From Terriglobia bacterium (GTDB lineage Bacteria > Acidobacteriota > Terriglobia > Terriglobales > Acidobacteriaceae), in NCBI GenBank assembly GCA_020073665.1, contig JAIQEU010000004.1, positions 62,001 to 126,000 of the forward strand: a DNA stretch of 64,000 bases, in the 5' to 3' direction. The stretch's first letter is position 1. Each line of letters begins with the position of its first letter. Below, in pieces: positions 21,083 through 50,645 of the stretch. Below the pieces are notes generated by a model that was not told the origin of the DNA, searched no databases, and saw only the letters and a list, made by a program, of their open reading frames with translations. The translations under genes were made by a program, and so were the position numbers.

Positions 21083-21535
21083 CTAGGCCTTCGTCGTTTT
21101 CGAATTCTCTACCCGTAAATATTCATACAACGCGTCGTACAGCGGAAACTGCCGCGCCAGCCGTTCTTCATCGCACAATCCTATGGCCTTGAACCCTTCT
21201 GCGATGGCCTTCAGTCCCGCTCCCTCCGCAGCCACCGCTTCCTGTCCCTTAACATCTGCGGCGCGCACAATCAGGGCTAGCCGTTCGAGTGCAAGATCTC
21301 TTAACTTGTAATCCTCCAATATCGCCTCGAAAGTACAGCGCTCTCCGCGGTGGTTCAATTTGATCTGGCTCAACCGCGGGGCATCGAACGGAATCGCCGG
21401 TTCCCGATTGGCGCGATCTGCCAGTTCACTCTCTTCGACGAATAGGAACTCCGCCTGTGGATCGACAAATCGCCGAATCAGCCACGGACAGGCCACCCGA
21501 TCCACCTTCACATTCCGCCGCGTGATCCATTTCAT
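21083..21535 (-). CDS. Single-domain ChrB C-terminal paralogue
   Basis: A 150-residue protein that aligns by eye with the C-terminal half of the ChrB protein encoded at 23296-24225. Both have a WLIRRF(V/I)DP motif and an HRGE-x-C-(S/T)-FE motif, and both end in a helical region. The ATG at 21533-21535 is preceded by GAGG at six bases; an upstream in-frame start would overlap the previous gene. Stand-alone ChrB C-domains are known beside chromate transporters, sometimes annotated ChrB1. The conserved Cys/His/Asp set could form a metal site. Confidence 0.85.
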   Translation of the reverse strand: MKWITRRNVKVDRVACPWLIRRFVDPQAEFLFVEESELADRANREPAIPFDAPRLSQIKLNHRGERCTFEAILEDYKLRDLALERLALIVRAADVKGQEAVAAEGAGLKAIAEGFKAIGLCDEERLARQFPLYDALYEYLRVENSKTTKA

Positions 21536-21551
21536 GTAGTCCTCGTTGCCG

Positions 21552-22547
21552 CTAGGCTGCAAGATCCAGAGTCAAACCACACTCGGCAGCCACCGCCTTC
21601 TCATACACCAGTGCCGCGGCTGCCACGTCCTGCAACGCCATGCCCGTGCTGTCGAAGATCGCGACCTCTTCTGGCGAAGTCCGGCCGCTCTTCTTGCCGG
21701 CCACCACCTCGCCCAGTTCCGCATGTACTTCAGCCTGATTCATCACTCCGGCAGCGATGGCATGATGCAGATCGCCGATGGTAGCGCACTGCTCCACCAT
21801 GTCGGCCACGACTTTGCTTGCCGCCATGAGCGCGGGGGCCAATTCCTGCTTTTCGGGATTGTCGGCGCCCACGGCCGCGATGAACGTTCCCGGACGAATG
21901 TGCGGCAGCGCCAGCAACGGCTGTCGCGACGTCGTGCAGGTCACACAGACATCGCTTCGGGCCGCAGCGCTTGCCAGATCTGAAACCGCCTCGATTTCGA
22001 TTCTCAATTCTGCGCCGAGTTCCTGGGCAAACTTTCGGGCCTGATCCGGATTGCTGTCGTATGCATATACCTTACGCAAAGGAAGAACCTGCATCAGGGC
22101 GCGCAGCTGTACCCGCCCCTGGCTGCCGCAACCGCAGATCGTCGCCACCTCCGAATCCGGACGCGCCAGGTACTTGGCCGCTACCGCGGTGGCCGCACCG
22201 GTTCGCTGCGCCGTGATTTCCATCGAATCCATGAGCGCCAGCGGCCTGCCGTTTTCGCCATCGCACAAGACGATTACACCCTGGATGGTAGGTAGCCCGA
22301 AACGCTCCCGGTTCTGCGGAAAATTCCCGTTTACCTTGGCGGCAAAATAAGTGCGGCTCAGCCCGAGCACTCCCGCCTTGATGTGGAAGCCACCCCCTTC
22401 CACATGCAGGCCCAGCACTCCCGGAGCCGCTGCCTTGCCTTCCCCAAATAAGCGAAAAGCATCTTCCACCGCCGCGATGCAGGCCTCCATCGTCAGCAGG
22501 CTGGCAATTTCGCCGCGCCGCAACAGCAGGGTGGCCGGGCAGGTCAT
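21552..22547 (-). CDS. Ornithine cyclodeaminase / mu-crystallin family protein
   Basis: A 331-residue NAD(P)-binding protein. The N-terminal substrate domain includes 'KAGVLGLSRTYFAAKVNGNFP', and 'MDSMEITAQRTGAATAVAAKYLA' precedes the Rossmann segment 'VATICGCGSQGRVQLRAL'. Members act as ornithine cyclodeaminase, alanine dehydrogenase, ketimine reductase or similar; the substrate is not readable. Its start overlaps the stop of pepE (four bases), so the two are coupled. An amino-acid enzyme inside a chr operon is unexpected. Confidence 0.88.
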   Translation of the reverse strand: MTCPATLLLRRGEIASLLTMEACIAAVEDAFRLFGEGKAAAPGVLGLHVEGGGFHIKAGVLGLSRTYFAAKVNGNFPQNRERFGLPTIQGVIVLCDGENGRPLALMDSMEITAQRTGAATAVAAKYLARPDSEVATICGCGSQGRVQLRALMQVLPLRKVYAYDSNPDQARKFAQELGAELRIEIEAVSDLASAAARSDVCVTCTTSRQPLLALPHIRPGTFIAAVGADNPEKQELAPALMAASKVVADMVEQCATIGDLHHAIAAGVMNQAEVHAELGEVVAGKKSGRTSPEEVAIFDSTGMALQDVAAAALVYEKAVAAECGLTLDLAA

Positions 22548-23263
22548 GCGGCCTCCACCATGGGTTGCAACAGCGAGCCGAGTTCCGCTCCCGGAGTAAC
22601 TTCTACGGGATTCTCCCCGCGACGAAAGATCCGCGCTCCCGTCACCCCGCGCAGCACTACGGACTCGCCCTCGACCCGCAGCATGGCACCCTCGCGCAGC
22701 CCAATCACCGGTGCGTCATTTTCCTCCAGAAACTGCAAGATGCGTTCCTCCTGCGTCTCCCCCATATGGGTCGACGCGGGATCGGGATCGAGGTAGTGCG
22801 GGCTGATCTGAAAATCCACCAGGCCCAATGAATCGAACGACGGAGGCTGCACGATGGGCATGTCCTTAGTGGTTTTCAGCGTGGGGCAAGCCACGATCGA
22901 ACCTGCGCTTGACCCGATGTACGGCATAGCTTGCATGACTTTGTGGCGGATCATCTCCAGCAAGTCAAAGCTGTAGAGACCAGCCAAGAGTCGAAAGGTA
23001 TTTCCGCCGCCTACGAAAATGGCGTCTGCCTGCTCAATTTCGCGGCGCGGGTTCGAGACATCGTGCAGAGACACCAGCGTGCACCCCATGGCCCGGAACC
23101 GTTCCCGTGCTCGCGCTGTGTATCCATTGCGCTCGTGGACCGCGAACGGCACAAAGGCAATCCGGCTCGCAGGACCAAGAAAATCTCGAATCGCGTTTTC
23201 GGCGTGGTCCAGATAGCCGCTGCCGTAAAGGGTCGAGTTGCTGATCAGTAAAAGACGTTTCAT
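22544..23263 (-). CDS. pepE: Dipeptidase E (alpha-aspartyl dipeptidase, family S51)
   Basis: A 239-residue serine peptidase cleaving Asp-X dipeptides. The sequence closely follows the known PepE pattern: LLLISNSTLYGSGYLDHA at the start, 'VGGGNTFRLL', the nucleophile serine in GSSAGS, 'TTKDMPIVQPPSFDSL' and 'GETQEERI'. The start at ATG 23261-23263 fits the family N terminus. It is followed with overlap by the ocd-like gene. PepE would feed free aspartate or other amino acids, giving a possible metabolic link to its partner. It lies 32 bases after chrB. Confidence 0.92.
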   Translation of the reverse strand: MKRLLLISNSTLYGSGYLDHAENAIRDFLGPASRIAFVPFAVHERNGYTARARERFRAMGCTLVSLHDVSNPRREIEQADAIFVGGGNTFRLLAGLYSFDLLEMIRHKVMQAMPYIGSSAGSIVACPTLKTTKDMPIVQPPSFDSLGLVDFQISPHYLDPDPASTHMGETQEERILQFLEENDAPVIGLREGAMLRVEGESVVLRGVTGARIFRRGENPVEVTPGAELGSLLQPMVEAA

Positions 23264-23295
23264 ATTATCTCCGCGAACGCTGCGGCAAGGTTCTT

Positions 23296-24225
23296 TCATC
23301 CCAATCCGGAATACAATCCCTCGATCAATTCCATCCCGCGCCGAAGCAGTTCATCGTCGGGCACATCCTGCCGAGCCCAGCCGTTCAGCACACGATCCAG
23401 GCCCTGCCCTTCCACCCGACCGAACTTTTCATCTTCCAGGTCGGCATCGTGAATGATCTGCGCGATGCGCTTCACTTTGCCGTCACGGATGGCGAACTCC
23501 TTACAAAGCGTTTCGAAACTGCAATCCTCGCCGCGATGACCGAATCCCTCTGCGGCAAACATGTCGAAAGGAACTGCCTCCGGATGCAAGCCGGGATCAT
23601 CGCCGAAAACAAACCGCGCCCGCGGGTCGATGAATCGCCGGATCAGCCACGCCGACGACACCCGATCGATACCCGGTCGTGGCCGGGTCATCCACACCCG
23701 GTTCAGATACTGCGCCTTGGCCTTCTGTCCGGGCTTGGTGGCAGGCTCGTCGGCCCGTGCCAGCGCCGTCTCTACTTGGGCCCGCAGCGGGTTTTCGAAA
23801 AAGTCGATGGCCGCGATCTCCTGAAACTGGCGGCGCAAGCGGCTTAGCGTGCCCGCGGGGCGGCGCGCGGGCGACAGGCTCAGCAGCTTCTTTAGTTCGC
23901 GCAGCAGCTTTTCGTAGTCACGGACTCGCGCTTCCGTAAACAACTGCCGCAGCCGCTTGTCGGAAAGATCGTCGAACGCCTGCACCCTGACCACTGAGGC
24001 TTGGCCTTTGTAGTTGCGGATGGCTGTTGCCAGCCATTCCAGTTTCTCCTGGTTAGCAGGCCGGTTCGGGAGCACGTATCCGGAGGAGCGCAGCGCCAAT
24101 GCTCCATAACGTTGCAGTTTGCGCCACACTTCCACCCGCGCGCTGGCCCGGCCGGAAGGCAGGCTGAACACCAGCAGCAGCCAGGGAGCCGGACTCGGTT
24201 GAGTCGTTACAGTCATTGCTGACAT
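23296..24225 (-). CDS. chrB: Chromate resistance/regulatory protein ChrB
   Basis: A protein of up to 309 residues. The N-terminal domain (about 14-150) begins 'WLLLVFSLPSGRASARVEVWRKLQRYGAL', as in ChrB proteins. The C-terminal domain (about 175-305) has the WLIRRFIDP and HRGEDCSFE motifs. ChrB is a chromate-responsive regulator in proteobacterial chr operons. Two ATGs compete: 24223-24225, at the edge of the operator, and 24214-24216. No Shine-Dalgarno precedes either. The predicted -10 box (24226-24231) abuts the first ATG, so the transcript may be leaderless and use the second. It is the first gene of the operon. Confidence 0.88.
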   Translation of the reverse strand: MSAMTVTTQPSPAPWLLLVFSLPSGRASARVEVWRKLQRYGALALRSSGYVLPNRPANQEKLEWLATAIRNYKGQASVVRVQAFDDLSDKRLRQLFTEARVRDYEKLLRELKKLLSLSPARRPAGTLSRLRRQFQEIAAIDFFENPLRAQVETALARADEPATKPGQKAKAQYLNRVWMTRPRPGIDRVSSAWLIRRFIDPRARFVFGDDPGLHPEAVPFDMFAAEGFGHRGEDCSFETLCKEFAIRDGKVKRIAQIIHDADLEDEKFGRVEGQGLDRVLNGWARQDVPDDELLRRGMELIEGLYSGLG

Positions 24226-26595: not shown

Positions 26596-26812
26596 CCTGC
26601 GTTCTGCATGCCTGCAAAACGCACTGATTACCTGCGAAACGCAGGTGTAGAGATGTCCTTTCGCACTAACGCCCTCGCCTAAGTGGTTGTCCTGCAGCAG
26701 ATTCAGCCGCTGGCCAGTTTTGCCATCCACGTGCACTTACCAAGGCTGAAAGCAGATGCGAGCGAGCGCTGGTCGAGCACTCCGGATAAGTCGCAGATGC
26801 GGAGGAGGTCCC

Positions 26813-27475
26813 ATGTCGATCCTATTTGTCCTCCTGATGTTCCTGCTGATCATCAGCATCAGCTACTTTCGCCGGCCGGAAGAGCGTCCAGCGGTTAAGC
26901 CGGAATTTTGGGCTGCCCCGCAAGCGCCGCGCATCGAGCGCGAGTACGGGTTCGAGATTCCCCAAGGGTATTGCTTCCATCCCGGGCATACCTGGGTGCT
27001 GAAGGAAGCTCCCGAGACCGCGCGCGTGGGTCTGGACAGTTTTGCCAGCAACCTGCTGGGCAAGATCGATCGTATCGAGGTGGCGGGTCTGAACCGCTGG
27101 GTCCGTCAAGGGCAAAAGCTGATGACGGTGTTCAGTGGCAGCCAGTCTCTCGACCTGCTCTCGCCGGTCGAAGGCGTGGTCACAGCCGTCAATCACGATG
27201 TGATCGCGGATCCCAGCCTCATCACGCAGGATCCCTACCGCAACGGCTGGATTGCCATGGTGAAAGCGCCCGATCTGGCGGTCAACCAGAAGAACCTGGT
27301 CCAGGGCACGATGGTGGCGCCGTGGCTGCAGAACAACATCACGCGCCTCAACGGCATGCTGGCCCAGGTTTCACCGGCGCTGGCGCAAGATGGCGGACTG
27401 CCGGTTAGCGGCCTGCTGACGCGGGTCACACCTGCATTGCGCGAGAAGCTGACGCAGGAGTTCTTCCTGTCGTAG
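26813..27475 (+). CDS. Membrane-anchored glycine-cleavage H-protein-like protein without lipoyl lysine
   Basis: A 220-residue protein. Residues 1-17 form a membrane helix (ILFVLLMFLLIISISYF). From about residue 60 it has the hammerhead/lipoyl fold of GcvH: 'HPGHTWVLKE' (GcvH HEWV), 'VGLDSFASNLLGKI' and 'SLDLLSPVEGVVTAVN'. Aligned with GcvH, the lipoylated lysine of the ESVKAVSDLY motif is a serine here, so it cannot carry lipoate in the usual way. GGAGG precedes the ATG at 26813. It is first in an operon with a HybA-like ferredoxin and a HybB/NrfD-like subunit. A structural role in the complex is likely. Confidence 0.82.
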   Translation: MSILFVLLMFLLIISISYFRRPEERPAVKPEFWAAPQAPRIEREYGFEIPQGYCFHPGHTWVLKEAPETARVGLDSFASNLLGKIDRIEVAGLNRWVRQGQKLMTVFSGSQSLDLLSPVEGVVTAVNHDVIADPSLITQDPYRNGWIAMVKAPDLAVNQKNLVQGTMVAPWLQNNITRLNGMLAQVSPALAQDGGLPVSGLLTRVTPALREKLTQEFFLS

Positions 27476-27506
27476 CGGTACCGAAGCACGAGGAAAGGAG
27501 ACGACC

Positions 27507-28250
27507 ATGGAAACCACACGAGCCATCCTGGTAGACATCACGAAGTGCATCGGATGCCGGAGCTGCGAGCAGGCCTGCAAAGAGGTCCACGGGTTCCCGA
27601 TGGAAACCGAGGCCAAGCTCTCGGTCACGGCACTGACGGTGATCGAGGAGCGTGGCGACAAGTTCGTGCGGCGGATGTGCATGCACTGCCAGGACCCGGC
27701 GTGCGCCTCGGCCTGCCTGGTGGGCGCGCTGAAGAAAACCGCGGCCGGGCCGGTCACCTACGACGCCTCCAAGTGCATCGGCTGCCGCTACTGCCTGGTG
27801 GCGTGCCCGTTCAACGTGCCGCGCTACGAGTGGTCGAAGCTGGTGCCCTATGTGAAGAAATGCGACATGTGCGCCCAGCGCCAGGCCCAGGGCCAACCGC
27901 CCGCGTGCGTGGAAGCTTGCCCGACAGGAGCTTCGATCGTGGGCAACCGGGACGAGATACTGGAAGAGGCGCAGCGCCGCATTGTGACCGACTCCAAGTA
28001 CGTAAAGCACATTTACGGCAGCGAGGAAGCGGGCGGGACATCGGTGTTCTTCATTTCCGATGTGCCGTTTGAAAAGCTGGGCTTCGTCGCAGCACCCAAG
28101 CAACCCATGCCGGTCCTGACCGCCAACGCTCTGGGCGATGGACCGACCGTGATCCTGCTGGGCGGCGCATTGCTCTCAGGACTGTACTGGATCACACAAC
28201 GCCGCGCGGAAGTGGCGCTGGCGGAAGCGCAGGATAAGGAAAGGAGCTGA
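27507..28250 (+). CDS. Four-cluster 4Fe-4S ferredoxin subunit (HybA/DmsB-like)
   Basis: A 247-residue electron-transfer protein with four complete cysteine groups: CIGCRSCEQAC, CMHCQDPACASAC, CIGCRYCLVAC and CDMCAQRQAQGQPPACVEAC. A C-terminal hydrophobic helix (TVILLGGALLSGLYWI, about 210-228) anchors it, as in E. coli HybA. Unlike HybA there is no twin-arginine signal, so it either stays on the cytoplasmic side or travels with a Tat-bearing partner. It should pass electrons between a catalytic subunit and the following HybB-like quinone protein. No catalytic subunit gene is nearby. Confidence 0.92.
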   Translation: METTRAILVDITKCIGCRSCEQACKEVHGFPMETEAKLSVTALTVIEERGDKFVRRMCMHCQDPACASACLVGALKKTAAGPVTYDASKCIGCRYCLVACPFNVPRYEWSKLVPYVKKCDMCAQRQAQGQPPACVEACPTGASIVGNRDEILEEAQRRIVTDSKYVKHIYGSEEAGGTSVFFISDVPFEKLGFVAAPKQPMPVLTANALGDGPTVILLGGALLSGLYWITQRRAEVALAEAQDKERS

Positions 28251-28253
28251 GCC

Positions 28254-29426
28254 ATGACAACTACTCGGTTTCCCAGAATCACCTTGTGGCGCATCATCGT
28301 GGCGGTGATTTTCGCCGCTGGCCTCTATGCCACCTACGCGCGGTTTGCGCTCGGCTTCAAGCTGGCCACTAATCTGACTGATCCCCAACCCTGGGGCCTG
28401 TGGGTGGGATTGGGGACGCTTTGCGGCGTGGGACTCTCGGCCGGCGGGTTTGCCATTGCCGCCGCCGTCTACCTCTTGGGCTTTGAGCGCTATCGTCCGG
28501 TGCTGCGGACTGCCGTGCTGGTGTCGTTCCTCGGCTACATGTCCGTAATCGTGGGCATGATGTACGAACTGGGGCTGCCGTGGAGGATCTGGCATCCCAT
28601 CGTGATGTGGAACCGCCACTCGGTGCTGTTCGAAGTCTCCTGGTGCGTGATGCTCTACACCACAGTGCTGGCTCTAGAATTCTCGCCCTCGCTGATCGAG
28701 AAGATTCCCTGGGCCGGATTCCGCGAGTTCTACCTGCACTGGCATCACAAGCTCCTGATCGCGCTGGTACTGGCAGGAACCCTGCTCTCTTCGATGCACC
28801 AGTCGTTCCTGGGCGCCCTCTACTTGATCACCAAGGGCAAACTGGATCCGCTCTGGTACAGCCCGTATCTGACCACCGAGTTCTACCTGTCGGCAATTCC
28901 CGCCGGTCTGGCGGTAACCATCATGGCATTGTATCTGTGCGTGCGTTCACTGAACGTGCGCCTGGACCTGAGTGTTCTTAGCGACGTGAGCCGGGTGATC
29001 GCGCCGTTACTGGCGCTCTGGGGACTGTTCCGAGCTGTTGACCTGATCACCCACGACGCCACACCATACTTGTTCATGTGGCGCGAGGAGACCCTCTCCT
29101 TCTGGGTGGAGATCGGACTGTTCGTGCTGGTGCCGGTAGTTCTTCTGAGCCGCGACAAAGTGCGGAATAACCCGCAATACCTGTACTGGACCTGCGCCCT
29201 GGTGGTGATGGGCTTTATGGCGAACCGGCTAAACGTATCCATCACCGGGCTGCAAGCCAGTTCCGGGGTCTACTACGTGCCGAAGTGGACCGAGTTTGCC
29301 GCTACGCTGGCAGTGCTCACGGCTGCGGTGATGGCGTTCCGTTACGCGGTCATCTACCTGGACATTCTGCCCAAGAACCCGCCGCGGCAGCGCTGGATGG
29401 TCGCAAACACGGCGGCGGAAGCTTAG
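28254..29426 (+). CDS. HybB/NrfD-family quinone-interacting membrane subunit
   Basis: A 390-residue polytopic protein with about ten transmembrane helices. Family features include 'GLWVGLGTLCGVGLSAGGFAIAA', 'VGMMYELGLPWRIWHPIVMW' and 'HWHHKLLIALVLAGTLLSSMHQSFLGAL', resembling the hydrogenase-2 HybB branch rather than short NrfD. It exchanges electrons with quinone and the ferredoxin encoded just before it (three-base gap). It is the last gene of the module; a strong terminator follows. Confidence 0.93.
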   Translation: MTTTRFPRITLWRIIVAVIFAAGLYATYARFALGFKLATNLTDPQPWGLWVGLGTLCGVGLSAGGFAIAAAVYLLGFERYRPVLRTAVLVSFLGYMSVIVGMMYELGLPWRIWHPIVMWNRHSVLFEVSWCVMLYTTVLALEFSPSLIEKIPWAGFREFYLHWHHKLLIALVLAGTLLSSMHQSFLGALYLITKGKLDPLWYSPYLTTEFYLSAIPAGLAVTIMALYLCVRSLNVRLDLSVLSDVSRVIAPLLALWGLFRAVDLITHDATPYLFMWREETLSFWVEIGLFVLVPVVLLSRDKVRNNPQYLYWTCALVVMGFMANRLNVSITGLQASSGVYYVPKWTEFAATLAVLTAAVMAFRYAVIYLDILPKNPPRQRWMVANTAAEA

Positions 29427-29499: not shown

Positions 29500-30177
29500 T
29501 TAATTCAGATCCGCCAGGGTCACGGACCCGTACCCCGCGAGGTCGCTGACCAACACAATGGTGCGGTTCTGGCCGGCCGTGAAGGTGACCGGGCCGATGG
29601 CGAGATATGAGAATGTATTTCCCGCGCCGGTGACAATGATCTCGTACAGGCCCGCAGTCATGGACAGGTAGGCACTCGTGGAATCGAGGCCCAGGTTGCT
29701 GATCGTAGGCGGAACCGACCCGGGAATCGTTCCCGGGGCCACGACATAGACGTCAACCCCGCCCACCGAGGGCATGTCGTTTACCAGGCGTAGCTGAAAC
29801 TGGCCCGAACTGGGCGCGGTGGTGTCGTCAACCAGCAAAAGCGGGGCAATGCTCGACACGAAGTTCGCCGAGATCAGAGTGTATTTCGTGCCGCTGTTGA
29901 GACTGACAGTTTCATCGACCAGGGGACTTGTGGAGTTAGTCGATTCGATCTGAAGGTGCCGTGAACCCGCGTTTACCGCCGCATAGTTTGAGGGCACGGC
30001 GAATGTCAGATTGCCGAATAGCGTGGTGCCGTCGACCAGGACGTTCACCGTGCCGGCATCAGCAGAGCCCTGCAAAACCCTTAGCTCTGTGTGATTTCCT
30101 CCTCCCCCGCAACCGACAGCGGTAGCCAGGGCGCTTACCAACAGTAAACACGCAGTCGTGCTGAATCGTTGGGTCAC
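29500..30177 (-). CDS. DUF4397 lipoprotein
   Basis: A 225-residue exported protein. A signal peptide ends in a lipobox-like ATAVGC followed by glycines, so the mature protein is probably lipidated. The mature part has DUF4397-type beta-strand repeats: 'LRVLQGSADAGTVNVLVDG' and 'LRLVNDMPSVGGVDVYV'. The start is taken as GTG 30175-30177, eight bases behind AGGAG; a GTG nine bases upstream is an alternative. It is likely a surface adhesion or scaffold protein; function is unproven. It follows the cupredoxin gene on the same strand after about 240 bases. Confidence 0.84.
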   Translation of the reverse strand: MTQRFSTTACLLLVSALATAVGCGGGGNHTELRVLQGSADAGTVNVLVDGTTLFGNLTFAVPSNYAAVNAGSRHLQIESTNSTSPLVDETVSLNSGTKYTLISANFVSSIAPLLLVDDTTAPSSGQFQLRLVNDMPSVGGVDVYVVAPGTIPGSVPPTISNLGLDSTSAYLSMTAGLYEIIVTGAGNTFSYLAIGPVTFTAGQNRTIVLVSDLAGYGSVTLADLN

Positions 30178-30369
30178 GTTGCTCACTCCTCTTCCGGAAA
30201 CTCACGGCCGCACTTGGGCTTGCGACGTACCTGCCCCCAGGCGTTGCCGGAACGCAACGCGTGAGAGTGCTGCCGTATGAATCGGAGATGTGATCTGAAC
30301 ACACGCCCGTGTGAAGTTGGGTAAAGAGTTCGTCAAGCTGGGTAAAGGTTTGTAACGGCAGGGGGCAGG

Positions 30370-30420: not shown

Positions 30421-31173
30421 TCACATGCTGGGGCGGGCCTTGAAGACGAACTCCACCTGCTTCGACTCGGCGGCGCCGATGGTGATGGTTTGCGTCGCCG
30501 TGCCAAGGGTTTCGTGCCATGCCTTCAGGGTGTAGGTTCCCGGGGGAAGGCCCTTGAGGTCGAAGCTGCCGTTTTTCCCAGTCACCGCAAAGTACGGGTG
30601 CTTGAACACCGCGATGTAGCTGCGCATCCAGGGGTGCATGTTGCACTTCACCGGGATCGATATCTCCTCGCGGGCGAAGGTCTCTTCGATCTGGAGGCCG
30701 GGCGGCTGCGACTTGTTCCACTCACGGTTGTTGGCGGGCTGCGGATGGATGTTGTGCGTGGTCACGTCGTTGTTCACGACTTCCAACTCCTGGTTAGCGC
30801 GCATGGCGACCACATGGGGCTCATACAAGCAGCCTTTCTGCTCGATCACTGCCGGTTCGGTGGGAGGATCGAACGTACGGTCACCCAGGCCGCTGGCCAC
30901 GAACACGACCACGTTCTCAAGTCCGCCGTTGCCGTCGGCCACGATATCCGCGTAGCGGACGCCGGCGGGGTGCAGCTTGGCGCACTTGGGATCCTGCGAC
31001 ATGTCGATGTGGGTTGGCTTGGGGACTGTTCCTTCAAACTTCACTACGCCGGTCACCACCGCCGACGCGTTGCTTGGATTGTTGGGAGCGGAACCGGTAC
31101 GCGCGGCAACAACACTGGCGGAGCAGACCAGTAACACGACTGTTACAACGAGGGGGAGGTTATTTTTTTTCAT
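30421..31173 (-). CDS. Secreted type-1 copper (plastocyanin-like) protein with carboxypeptidase-regulatory-like domain
   Basis: A 250-residue periplasmic protein with a signal peptide (about 1-24). Copper ligands of a type-1 site can be placed at His140 (in VTTHNIHP), Cys177, His180 and Met183 (KCNMHPWM). After the cupredoxin part, residues 190-250 ('GSFDLKGLPPGTYTLKAWHETLG') form a carboxypeptidase-regulatory-like beta domain. The start at ATG 31171-31173 has only a weak ribosome site. It is the third gene of an operon with a diheme cytochrome and a cytochrome-barrel fusion, and is a plausible one-electron carrier between them and the inner membrane. Confidence 0.88.
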   Translation of the reverse strand: MKKNNLPLVVTVVLLVCSASVVAARTGSAPNNPSNASAVVTGVVKFEGTVPKPTHIDMSQDPKCAKLHPAGVRYADIVADGNGGLENVVVFVASGLGDRTFDPPTEPAVIEQKGCLYEPHVVAMRANQELEVVNNDVTTHNIHPQPANNREWNKSQPPGLQIEETFAREEISIPVKCNMHPWMRSYIAVFKHPYFAVTGKNGSFDLKGLPPGTYTLKAWHETLGTATQTITIGAAESKQVEFVFKARPSM

Positions 31174-31214
31174 AAGACACCAGCCTTCTATTTCTGGATT
31201 AAAATTTCTGCAGT

Positions 31215-32042
31215 TCACTTACCGGTTTCGGTTTTTGACCCAACCATGGCCGCTTCGCCATCCTGGCCATGGTTCGTCTGCAACGATCGGATGTAATGCA
31301 CCACGTCCCAAAGCTGGTCCGGCTTCAGGGCGTCGGTGAACGAGGGCATAGGGGTCCCGTCGAGACCGGTCATCAGGTCGCGGAACAGGTCGCGATCGGA
31401 CTCTCCACACTTGAAGCGGGATCCGGTCGTCAGGTCGTAAGGAGTGATTGGATATCCGCGGCTATCGGTGAGAGTGTGCGCCGAGGGACCGTTCCCGCGC
31501 CCGTCCTTGCCGTGGCAACTCCAGCAATTCATGTCCTGGAAAACAGCCGCGCCGCGTTGCGTGCTCTCCGCTGAGGCCGGAGGTTCGGCAGGGATGGGCA
31601 GCGCAGGCCCGGGTTGCTCCTCGTGAAAACGGGGAGAAAACGTTTTGATGTAGGCGATCAGGTCCGAGCGATCCCGGCTGGGAAGCGGGTTCCATGACGG
31701 CATGCCGCTGGCATGGATGCCTCGGGTGATAGTCGCATAGAGGTCGCTGTCGAGCGGCAGGCTCCCGCTCGCGGTTGAACGGCACTTGAATGTCGCCTGG
31801 GTAAAGTCGCGAGGCTTGGGATCGAGATAAGGCGCGTTCTCTCCGTTTCCGTCACCGCGTACGCCGTGACATCCCACGCAGTAGCGGCGGTAGAGCCCTT
31901 TGCCCCGGTGCTCCGGTTCAGTCAGCTTGCCTTGCGCGACCGGGTAGCCGGAACTGGCTCCGGCGTTCTGGGCCGAGGCCACACCGGTGGCCAGAGAGAT
32001 CAGCAAGATGCTGCAGTAAAGAATCTGGGGACGGATTCGCAT
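31215..32042 (-). CDS. Secreted diheme cytochrome c
   Basis: A 275-residue protein with a signal peptide (1-24, ending ASAQ) and two class-I cytochrome domains, with haem motifs CVGCH at 55-59 and CWSCH at 173-177. Candidate axial methionines lie in 'HASGMPSWNP' and 'DGTPMPSFTD'. Two further cysteines (FKCRS, FKCGE) occupy equivalent positions in both halves, suggesting an internal duplication. It is located 18 bases after the barrel-cytochrome gene and 41 before the copper-protein gene, so it is probably the periplasmic relay of this electron-transfer operon. Confidence 0.92.
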   Translation of the reverse strand: MRIRPQILYCSILLISLATGVASAQNAGASSGYPVAQGKLTEPEHRGKGLYRRYCVGCHGVRGDGNGENAPYLDPKPRDFTQATFKCRSTASGSLPLDSDLYATITRGIHASGMPSWNPLPSRDRSDLIAYIKTFSPRFHEEQPGPALPIPAEPPASAESTQRGAAVFQDMNCWSCHGKDGRGNGPSAHTLTDSRGYPITPYDLTTGSRFKCGESDRDLFRDLMTGLDGTPMPSFTDALKPDQLWDVVHYIRSLQTNHGQDGEAAMVGSKTETGK

Positions 32043-32060
32043 CGCGAAGTCGCTCTCCTC

Positions 32061-33401
32061 TCAGAAGGCAAAGTCAAAGCCCATGAACACGCTGGTGCTG
32101 CGCTGGTCCTGCCCATTCAGCGAGGTGAGTTTGGAGCGCACCGTCGCAACCTCCTGGTGCCAGGCCAGCCCGGCGCGGCTGTGCATGAACGGGTAATAGC
32201 GATATCCGAGGGTGAAGGCGTCGAGGTTGGCGAAATCTCCTGGGTTCGTGGCCAGTGCCTGCCGGGTCATGCGAACCAGTTCGTAGCGTCCGATGAACAC
32301 CAGTTGGGGGGAATAGGTGTAATGCGCTTCCAGAGTGCCGGTGTTCCAGACCGGCGATTGCGCGCCGTCGGGAAGCGTCTGATTGGCGGCGGTGGCGTTG
32401 GCCAGAAACACATTGTCAGAGGCACGCTGGACGAGGCCGGTGAAATCGAAGCGTCCCAGGTAGAAGCTGGCGTAAGCGCCAGCGCGATAAAACGACCGGT
32501 TGCCACGGCCGCTGCCCGGTATGGGCACCCCGTCCGAGGTGAGAAGGAATGTCGGCGCCAGCCCGACGTATCCGTACGCACCCACCCGCTGCAAGCCCAG
32601 GTGAGGCAACAGAAACGCCTGGCTGAGATGGAAGTAGCCGTCGTAGCTGCGCCCTCCGGGCAGCCCCAGTTCGCCATCGCTGCTACTGAGCAGCGAAAGC
32701 GCGTAGCGAGTGTGATCGTCCGCAGAGTGGCCCAGCAGTTCGGCGCCCAGCTGGTTGTCTCCCATGCTGGTCGGGGTGACGTCGCCGGGAGGCAGGAAGT
32801 GGTAAAGCTGGTAAAAGCCGCCATTATTGGACAAGGTCATGATCCGCTTCTCGGAGATGGGTAAATCCAGCTCGAACTTGCCGAACTTGAAGTTCAACCA
32901 CGGCGATCCGTGAAGGCGGTCGAGCCGCACCCAGGCGGACTCGAAGCTGATGGTGCCGCTATCCGACTCGATGGATGGCACCAGGAGGAAGGAAATGTTT
33001 TTCGCCAGCGTGCCGCCGGTCAGGATGTCGATTCCGGGCAAATCGAAACCGGAGGCATTGATGGTGCTCTGCTGCTGGCCGCTGGTGCCATCTCCCGGCA
33101 CCACGTCGCTAGCCACACGGCTGTTGCCCTCAAAGTGCCAGTGGGGAGTAATCCGCATGGCGACCGGCCAGTACGCTGGATTCTGGTAGAAGGGAGCATC
33201 CCGGTCGTTGTTCAACTGGTAGCCCTCATCCTTGAAGGTTTGGCCGAAGCTGTTCAGCTTGGGCCACGCCTCATGACAGGCCGAACAGGGTAGGCCGTAT
33301 TTGCGCGCGAATGCAGGGATCGCCTGGGCAGGTTGGACCAACGCCAGCGTCGCTCCTAGAAGCAACGCCAGTGCCCCAAGCTTGTTGGTCACGATGCTCA
33401 T
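32061..33401 (-). CDS. Monoheme cytochrome-beta-barrel fusion (Cyc2-like outer-membrane cytochrome)
   Basis: A 446-residue protein: signal peptide (about 1-27, ending AQA), one haem motif CSACH at 39-43 embedded in 'IPAFARKYGLPCSACHEAW', then 'PKLNSFGQTFKDEGYQL'. The remaining 380 residues show alternating polar/aromatic strands ending in Phe, as in an outer-membrane barrel. Fusion of a single N-terminal haem to a porin is the architecture of Cyc2, the iron oxidase of iron-oxidising bacteria, and the flanking motif resembles the Cyc2 pattern as I remember it. Length also fits. Broader relatives with other or unknown roles exist, so iron oxidation is only a hypothesis. It is first in its operon. 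Confidence 0.78.
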   Translation of the reverse strand: MSIVTNKLGALALLLGATLALVQPAQAIPAFARKYGLPCSACHEAWPKLNSFGQTFKDEGYQLNNDRDAPFYQNPAYWPVAMRITPHWHFEGNSRVASDVVPGDGTSGQQQSTINASGFDLPGIDILTGGTLAKNISFLLVPSIESDSGTISFESAWVRLDRLHGSPWLNFKFGKFELDLPISEKRIMTLSNNGGFYQLYHFLPPGDVTPTSMGDNQLGAELLGHSADDHTRYALSLLSSSDGELGLPGGRSYDGYFHLSQAFLLPHLGLQRVGAYGYVGLAPTFLLTSDGVPIPGSGRGNRSFYRAGAYASFYLGRFDFTGLVQRASDNVFLANATAANQTLPDGAQSPVWNTGTLEAHYTYSPQLVFIGRYELVRMTRQALATNPGDFANLDAFTLGYRYYPFMHSRAGLAWHQEVATVRSKLTSLNGQDQRSTSVFMGFDFAF

Positions 33402-48734: not shown

Positions 48735-50645
48735 TCAGCGCACGACGATCTTGCTGACCAGCTTTGCGTTGCTGAGGGGGTTGAGGATCTCGAGCGGGAC
48801 CTCTCCGGGCGATTGGGCGCGATACTCGAAGTCGTAGGTCTCCCCGGAAACGATGTGCAGGGCGGCGTTGGATTCCCCCGCAAGGCGCGCGGGGACATCG
48901 GCGCCGTCCTTGGCAAGGGCGCGCCAAGTCGCCGGATGCTCCTGGCTGCCGAGGCGGAAATTCGCCAGCAGGTTCGGAGCCATGTTGATCAGGCGCAGGC
49001 GGTAGGTTGTCCCTTGCGCCAGGGTAATCGGTTCAGGCGTTTCTACCCCGTTGATGGTGATGCGCTTGGCATCAAAAAATGTGTCCCGCGTGCCGATGAC
49101 CAGCAGCTTGTCGTGCTCGGGATCGAAAGACTGGCCGGGCTCGAGGACGATGAGACCGCCGTACACGCCGCCGCTGAGCTGGGTCGGGTCCTCGGCGTGG
49201 GTGTGATAGATGAAGGTGCCGGCACGGCTGGGAGTGAAGCGCGCCACGAAGCTCGCCCCGGGTGCGATTGCGGGAGTCACCTGGTCGCCGACGCCGCCGC
49301 CGACCACGCCGTCATAGTAGCTCTCCAGTTCAATGCCGTGCCAGTGAATGCTAGTCGCCGCATTCAGGTGATTGACCACGGTGATTTCGGTGGGCTGGCC
49401 GCGGGTGACGACGATGGGTGGGCCGACCGCGCGGTCGTTTGAAACCACGAGCTTCTTTCCCTCGCGCACCGAACAGGCGAATGTCGGCTCATTGGCTTTC
49501 GCCGCCGCCGGTTCAATCACCAGGTCGATCTTCCGCGCTGCCTCCACGGGAGGCGGCGCTGCCGGCGCGCCGGCGGGCGCTTTCACATTGATGACTAGCA
49601 CCAGGCCGGCCATGTCGAGCATGCCCGGCATGGCGCTGCCATCGTGATGGTGCGCGGCCAGGGCCGGCTCGGCAGGCGCGGATTGGCCGGCAGGCGTGAA
49701 CGTGGGCACGCGTTCGTCCTTCGAAAAGTGGAATTGAAAGTGGCAATGGAACAGCCAACGGCCAACATGCTCAGGCGACCACTCCATCATCATGGTGCTG
49801 GCGGGTTTGACAACCTGCGTAACCACCGACTGGCGATCGTTACCCGCAAACTGGGTGTCCGAATCCGAGTCGCCCAGACTCAGCAGCTTGTAGAAGGCGC
49901 CATGCAGGTGCATGGGATGCTCCGCAAAGCCGGGATTGATCACGCGCCAGCGGACCGTGTCGCCGGCCGTGTATTCCAGCGGCTCGGTGAATGGATAGGA
50001 CTTGCCATTGATCGTGACCACTTCGAAATTGGCGTGCACCATGTCGGGGGGAACCAGGAGCACATTGATCACGAACACGCGATCGGCAACGACGTCGCCA
50101 GGCGGGTCGACGATGAAGGCGCCGTTGAGATGGGCGTCTTCAAAGACTGGCTGCTGAAGCACCCCCAGCAGGCCGACGGCGCGTGGCACCGTGGTGCGCG
50201 CCCAGTAGTAGTAGGTTCCGGGAGCGCCAGCCAGAAAAGTGCGCTCGCGGCTTTCGCCGGGAGACACCGGCAGTTCATCTTTGGCGTCGCCGGGGCGGGT
50301 GTGCAACCCGTATACCTTGGCTGGGACCTTCAGTTGGTTGGTGACCGTGACATGAACCATGGTGCCCTGCGGCACGCGCAGCATCGGCCCGGGAATCTGC
50401 GCCGGGTGACCGGGTTCGCCGAATGCCTGGACGAATAATTGTGGTCCGTCCTCGGCCTCCGGATGCCAGGCCCCGCTGCGGATCTCGAGTTGAAGGTTCA
50501 GAACACCGCCCTGCAGCATGCCGGCGGGCGTGCGGTTCTGGTTGGCAACAACCGGACCCGGCTGTGCGAACCCGCAAACCGGCAAGAGGCAGAACAGCGA
50601 AACACAACAGCGAAACACTAAAGTTCTCAACAGACCACCCCGCAT
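48735..50645 (-). CDS. Multicopper oxidase with permuted copper motifs
   Basis: A 636-residue secreted protein (signal about 1-27, ending GFAQ). The copper motifs occur in unusual order: HPMHLHG at 243-249 and HCHFQFH at 300-306 come first, HWHG at 434-437 and HTH at 481-483 come second. In ordinary laccase-like enzymes HWHG/HTH are N-terminal and HPxHLHG/HCH C-terminal. The first cupredoxin domain has only vestiges (GLHTRP where HWHG is expected). A His/Met-rich linker (AHHHDGSAMPGMLDM) lies near 331-346. All motifs for one mononuclear and one trinuclear site are present, so activity is plausible. Confidence 0.88.
   Translation of the reverse strand: MRGGLLRTLVFRCCVSLFCLLPVCGFAQPGPVVANQNRTPAGMLQGGVLNLQLEIRSGAWHPEAEDGPQLFVQAFGEPGHPAQIPGPMLRVPQGTMVHVTVTNQLKVPAKVYGLHTRPGDAKDELPVSPGESRERTFLAGAPGTYYYWARTTVPRAVGLLGVLQQPVFEDAHLNGAFIVDPPGDVVADRVFVINVLLVPPDMVHANFEVVTINGKSYPFTEPLEYTAGDTVRWRVINPGFAEHPMHLHGAFYKLLSLGDSDSDTQFAGNDRQSVVTQVVKPASTMMMEWSPEHVGRWLFHCHFQFHFSKDERVPTFTPAGQSAPAEPALAAHHHDGSAMPGMLDMAGLVLVINVKAPAGAPAAPPPVEAARKIDLVIEPAAAKANEPTFACSVREGKKLVVSNDRAVGPPIVVTRGQPTEITVVNHLNAATSIHWHGIELESYYDGVVGGGVGDQVTPAIAPGASFVARFTPSRAGTFIYHTHAEDPTQLSGGVYGGLIVLEPGQSFDPEHDKLLVIGTRDTFFDAKRITINGVETPEPITLAQGTTYRLRLINMAPNLLANFRLGSQEHPATWRALAKDGADVPARLAGESNAALHIVSGETYDFEYRAQSPGEVPLEILNPLSNAKLVSKIVVR

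Follow-up and report, generated by a model that had tools for sequence, protein, structure and literature searches.

Do three adjacent genes in an acidobacterium form a route that carries electrons from outside the cell, across the periplasm and on to oxygen? The question is raised by a stretch of 64,000 nucleotides of Terriglobia bacterium contig JAIQEU010000004.1 (positions 62,001 to 126,000; hereafter the window), in which three minus-strand genes, each with an open and intact frame, run from 33401 to 30421. P0001 (32061..33401, minus strand, 446 residues) encodes a Cyc2-like monohaem cytochrome fused to a predicted porin, as judged from its open frame, its Cyc2 signature and profile alignment with hhalign. 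P0002 (31215..32042, minus strand, 275 residues) is a dihaem cytochrome c identified by Pfam, a PDB match and its haem motifs, and P0003 (30421..31173, minus strand, 250 residues from its ATG) is a type-1 copper protein, recognized by its ligands and by PF13620, in which a cupredoxin domain precedes a CarboxypepD_reg-like C-terminal part. An earlier note on this DNA had described a CSACH monohaem protein, a dihaem cytochrome c and a type-1 copper protein in series, with gaps of 18 and 41 bases, and this description stands: 18 bases (32043-32060) separate P0001 from P0002, and 41 bases (31174-31214) separate P0002 from P0003 when the cupredoxin is started at ATG 31173. At its longest, the P0003 frame begins with a GTG at 31218 and shares 4 bases with the cytochrome gene. 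Dozens of genomes contain orthologues at 50-70% identity, so that these cannot reasonably be taken for chance open reading frames (ORFs). We propose that the trio probably takes up electrons from outside the cell and passes them inward, by way of an aa3-type oxidase, to O2.

The evidence that carries this proposal comes from orthologous loci. A match to P0001 of at least 50% identity over at least 255 residues was counted from the match table in 32 of the 150 genomes searched, its own included. From the best matches, 32 loci with a full-length orthologue were chosen, belonging to 29 genomes and including the window; the sample omits the short-contig fragments G085, G014 and G075. Searching with tblastn up to 9 kb from the barrel gene located the dihaem gene at 31 of these loci, the cupredoxin at 31, CoxB at 26, CoxA at 25 and a CoxC-like gene at 25. 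The order in oxidase-linked loci is cyc2-like, dihaem c, cupredoxin, coxB, coxA, coxC; the copy on contig C41 of the window's own genome and 25 further loci run from the cyc2-like gene to coxB, with coxA and coxC next in 25 of these 26 (the contig of locus L065 stops inside the oxidase genes). Two SH3-domain genes are interposed behind the cyc2-like gene at L062, and a STAS-domain gene lies ahead of coxB at L044 and L063. The CuA motif is present in all 21 CoxB frames examined, and this linkage of the orthologues to a CuA-type oxidase strengthens the electron-route reading. No CoxB was located within 9 kb at six loci: the window, L050, where the barrel gene stands without either partner gene, L052, L056, L069, and L067, whose contig stops 2.6 kb past the barrel gene and leaves its oxidase status undecidable. 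At L094, from another family of the same phylum, the gene of a protein 31% identical to P0001 precedes a frame with P0002-like dihaem sequence (recognized by eye), which indicates that the pairing is older than the family. Two SH3-domain-like proteins (L042 105-2182; Pfam SH3_3, one above and one below cut-off) were also met by tblastn at 23 and 22 of the 32 barrel-gene loci, often divergent and upstream, and a TetR-type gene lies directly upstream at 10 of the 32.

The relation of P0001 to Cyc2 is best seen in its haem region. Its N-terminus appears signal-like by eye, and its single CSACH motif is followed by about 380 residues. Keffer and colleagues (PMC8406198) characterize Cyc2 by AXPXFAR[Q/K][T/Y] before a single CXXCH, PXL four residues past it, a 16-strand porin and a length of 365 residues or more. 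P0001, with the signature AIPAFARKY-GLP-CSACH-EAW-PKL, agrees with the sequence features of this definition. The whole pattern including PXL occurs in 28 of the 32 orthologues and P.FAR[QK][TY] with the haem motif in 30, and all 32 have exactly one CXXCH and at least 365 residues. Against Cyc2 references from rus operons, collected via a rusticyanin search, hhalign aligned 62 columns of the P0001 family (signal plus haem region) with a probability of 96.6, and blastp matched P0001 to the Cyc2 of L074 at 44% over 41 residues. The haem domain (residues 27-66; 33204..33323, minus strand) is, by blastp and hhalign, the sole part of P0001 with clear sequence homology to the Acidithiobacillus ferrooxidans-type protein. 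In a tree of 39 Cyc2-like proteins, rus Cyc2 (cluster 2) groups with Caballeronia and Methylocystis plasmid proteins and with three proteins of the window's relatives (100/100); the P0001 family forms a separate branch across the midpoint root, amid other proteins of the same phylum. Since this tree was built on a weak barrel alignment, we read it as one superfamily with different branches. The Cyc2 likeness put forward earlier therefore survives in the haem signature and in haem-domain homology, but not as membership of the A. ferrooxidans-type branch. FARQT-type (rus-like) Cyc2 was found in 40 of the 150 genomes, the window's genome not among them, with no sign of linkage to the long P0001 match (7 of 32 genomes with it, 33 of 118 without it). 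In genome G004, the barrel gene of an oxidase-linked set has a FARQT-type Cyc2 (L134 3185-4861) about 8.6 kb downstream of it.

The two predicted periplasmic partners retain their cofactor sites. P0002 carries two c-type haem domains (PF00034, 4.1e-24; PF13442, 1.8e-21) and matches chain B of PDB 6h5l with an E-value of 1.1e-54, a homology that extends over 211 residues. Both CXXCH motifs are kept in 31 of 31 dihaem proteins together with Met114 and Met232, which we infer to be the distal haem ligands. A third cysteine in each haem domain, Cys87 and Cys212, is likewise invariant (31/31) and lacks an equivalent in 6h5l; these two residues perhaps form an interdomain disulphide. As for P0003, the copper ligands named previously, His140, Cys177, His180 and Met183, are correctly numbered when counted from ATG 31173, and they are conserved in 31, 31, 30 and 30 of 31 proteins, respectively, one row being gapped. 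The Cys-x2-His-x2-Met spacing is that of amicyanin. PF13620 covers residues 209-258 of the long form.

In the window's genome, three Cyc2-like genes were found (window, C41 and contig C33), and a P0003-type cupredoxin adjoins each of them, being the next gene after that of C33. Among five P0003-type matches in the genome, the fourth (contig C17) precedes a CtaA gene and a further weak, unplaced match is on C48; the recurrence of the type beside Cyc2-like genes and CtaA indicates that this cupredoxin belongs to the respiratory wiring. The barrel protein of the oxidase-linked C41 set is 70% identical to P0001. Besides the C41 gene, oxidase subunit I is represented by two higher-scoring genes, a weaker one above cut-off and two matches below it, and given the two higher-scoring genes the housekeeping oxidase may be one other than that of C41. 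The three trees place the members of the window trio differently. P0001 groups with oxidase-linked copies of its own genome and of three relatives (100/100), the C41 copy being nearest by path; P0002 groups with L052 and L056 (100/99) and P0003 with L052, L056 and L069 (100/99), all of them oxidase-less. From these discordant groupings, the window trio is a mosaic, intact and of a second type beside the C41 set. The oxidase-less state is not a single clade, as it involves 4 changes on the tree of the barrel protein, 3 on that of the dihaem protein and 2 on that of the cupredoxin. The barrel and dihaem proteins of L069 group with those of the oxidase-linked L062 of the same genome, and L067 belongs to none of the groups that contain the window's proteins.

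In the route that we envisage, P0001 would sit in the outer membrane with its one haem close to where the pore opens into the periplasm, and would take electrons singly from a dissolved donor outside the cell. The dihaem cytochrome and the cupredoxin would then, in an order and a direction that we infer, ferry them over the periplasm to the CuA centre of a cytochrome c oxidase of the aa3 type. The C41 copy with its linked oxidase would represent the complete set, and the window copy an oxidase-less second version that may draw on oxidases already in the cell or accept electrons from a different donor. The claim of a complete electron route is best kept in part: the Cyc2 haem signature, the conserved redox partners and the orthologues linked to a CuA-type oxidase, including the own-genome copy, speak for it, but it does not extend to the window copy by itself, and the closed barrel is a prediction.

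Several results weigh against this reading. Oxidase genes are missing next to the window copy, and RuBisCO gave zero matches in the genome, which offers no sign of Calvin-cycle lithoautotrophy. The hhalign comparison with rus Cyc2 aligned no barrel column, and AlphaFold returned for P0001 a mean predicted local distance difference test score of 34.7 when it was modelled by itself and of 28.6 when six rus Cyc2 proteins were added. A home-made alternating-strand test, with residue scales hand-set from recall, gave z 0.8 for the P0001 family (not significant) versus 3.9 for rus Cyc2; the SH3b control reached 2.9, hence the test carries no weight (dihaem and cupredoxin controls, -0.6 and -0.1). 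In addition, the order coxB-coxA-coxC is common, so that the likeness to the rus operon rests on the upstream trio.

With regard to the C-terminal region, outer-membrane barrels usually end in an aromatic residue, and all 32 P0001 orthologues do. A Pfam scan of 31 orthologues at E<=0.1 returned BBP2 in three (best 3.7e-05; P0001 itself 0.0052, under the cut-off) and Porin_O_P in one (0.027). PDB searches with P0001 and two profiles gave nothing credible for the barrel protein. The barrel-like character claimed for this region thus retains the BBP2 and Porin_O_P traces, but neither a closed fold nor a significant strand test. The BBP2 trace could suit an ordinary porin whose haem plug serves haem or metal sensing or uptake rather than respiration, and both the barrel and electron transfer are unproven. 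We regard this as quite improbable, as a dihaem cytochrome, a cupredoxin and an oxidase recur alongside the gene and their cofactor ligands are conserved. We give still less credence to the idea that the C41 set was duplicated and that the window trio is its decaying copy: P0001 is indeed nearest to the C41 copy and the oxidase genes are absent beside the trio, but every frame and ligand is intact, and the supported grouping of its dihaem protein and cupredoxin with other oxidase-less loci (100/99 each) indicates that this type has been kept in several genomes.

If the trio is an inward electron route, as we favour, its donor has to be considered. Fe(II), or another donor, had been named in the earlier note by analogy only, and on that same footing we tentatively hold Fe(II) as the leading candidate, at somewhat less than an even chance. 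It could equally be incidental to a route fed by reduced humics or other small extracellular reductants, which is a real possibility though again short of an even one. The Cyc2 trees of PMC7029218 include organisms not known as iron oxidisers, which weighs on an Fe(II) donor; related genes are also found on plasmids from soil (Caballeronia) and peat-bog (Methylocystis) bacteria, and the absence of RuBisCO matches and the abundance of the family in one lineage (32 of 150 genomes) point in the same direction. On the other hand, the characterised Cyc2 proteins act on Fe(II) (PMC8406198), and the surroundings of the trio showed no gene specific to a donor. A minority reading, unlikely in our view and restricted to the oxidase-less type, reverses the flow: the window trio would export electrons to Fe(III) or minerals, quinol-fed through its HmcB/HmcC-like neighbours. 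Cyc2 and Cyc1 isoforms are described as the Fe(III)-reduction path of acidithiobacilli in PMC10715153, and a GcvH-HmcB-HmcC-like cluster adjoins the trio. In line with this notion, at L069 (11803-18147) a sigma-54 response regulator, a CHASE2 histidine kinase and a 22-haem MtrC-like cytochrome lie downstream of the oxidase-less barrel-dihaem pair on the same strand; the position of this 22-haem cytochrome fits the favoured inward kind of route as well. However, the HmcBC-like genes run towards the trio on the opposite strand and are so not co-transcribed with it, they have no clustered relative among the ORFs called at other loci (the caller missed some genes), and the oxidase-linked orthologues indicate the inward direction.

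The inward route invites comparison with the rus operon of Acidithiobacillus, whose layout, as given in PMC10654088, is matched by the C41-type loci, the window copy being without cox genes. A. ferrooxidans-type Cyc2 and P0001 share a signal-like N-terminus, the haem signature with a single CXXCH, a long C-terminal region with an aromatic end, and the position of first gene in a redox set. They differ in FARQT versus FARKY, in their separate branches and in an alignment limited to the signal and haem region. The partners are more distant: the C41 CoxA is 29% identical to rus CoxA versus 58% when compared with a different oxidase from the same genome, and the dihaem protein shows 21.5% identity to Cyc1 of the rus operon (E 0.001, very small database). 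The cupredoxin, set beside rusticyanin in the earlier note, gave chance-level matches only to rusticyanin or Cup, with no detectable relation to either. Because these partners are distantly or not detectably related to their rus counterparts, sequence comparison suggests that the rus-like layout was assembled independently around a shared kind of haem-porin. At slightly less than an even chance, we consider that one bacterial family has built a rus-like respiratory operon independently, out of largely unrelated parts (a Cyc2-like porin, a 6h5l-type dihaem cytochrome, a CarboxypepD-type cupredoxin and its own aa3 oxidase), together with a separate oxidase-less version whose cytochrome and cupredoxin form a lineage of their own.

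Metagenome-assembled genomes of Acidobacteriota are already known to contain Cyc2 homologues; excerpts of PMC9671151, where a Cyc2 of an Acidobacteriota genome is placed in cluster 3, of PMC10367259 and, for Cyc572 homologues, of PMC10654088 report such proteins without describing an operon of dihaem c, cupredoxin and oxidase. They possibly belong to the same broad group as P0001. A cytochrome gene beside cyc2 is likewise known in Acetobacteraceae (PMC10715153). As in the trio, a Cyc2-like gene adjoins a c-type cytochrome gene in Acetobacteraceae, Caballeronia and Methylocystis, but the carriers differ (a HiPIP gene accompanies the pair in Caballeronia), and the Caballeronia and Methylocystis plasmid proteins have a FARQT-type haem domain, unlike P0001. 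Plasmid searches returned three records for P0001, covering 11-34% of it; 39 for P0003, mostly from Sinorhizobium, partial and below 60% identity; and 930 for the C41 CoxA, none at 60% identity or above, a result uninformative on lineage. Of 20 stretches of viral contigs that fitted a pattern, none was confirmed as a relative. The open-licence literature searched gave no account of the trio together with its oxidase.

If the reading of an independently built operon is right, presumed plain heterotrophs would gain energy from an extracellular metal or humic donor, and if the set is respiratory, the rus arrangement would have a second, independent origin. Cyc2 serves as a marker of iron oxidation, and metagenome studies already score acidobacterial homologues in this way (PMC9671151 and PMC10367259). 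By linking a divergent Cyc2-like protein with a cytochrome oxidase, the conserved gene set makes the physiology of such genes testable; it also cautions that the marker takes in more than proven iron oxidisers.

A promoter and terminator scan gave no promoter-like site, terminator-like sites were fewer than in shuffled sequence, and Rfam at gathering scores had zero matches in the window. Genes for GcvH-like, HmcB/HybA-like 4Fe-4S and HmcC/HybB-like membrane proteins occupy 26756-29426 on the plus strand, convergent with the trio and with NCBIfam scores below cut-offs; no match to a NiFe-hydrogenase large subunit was found within the window. This HmcBC-like cluster was considered as a component of the trio and dropped, being convergent and without a clustered relative at other loci. 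A DUF4397 protein with a lipoprotein-like N-terminus (29500-30186, minus strand) is encoded 234 bases downstream of the cupredoxin. Farther away, a multicopper oxidase-like protein lies at 48735-50645 (minus strand), its Cu-oxidase_2 match preceding its best Cu-oxidase_3 match, and at 21083-24225 (minus strand) two ChrB-type genes surround ornithine cyclodeaminase-family and S51 peptidase genes.

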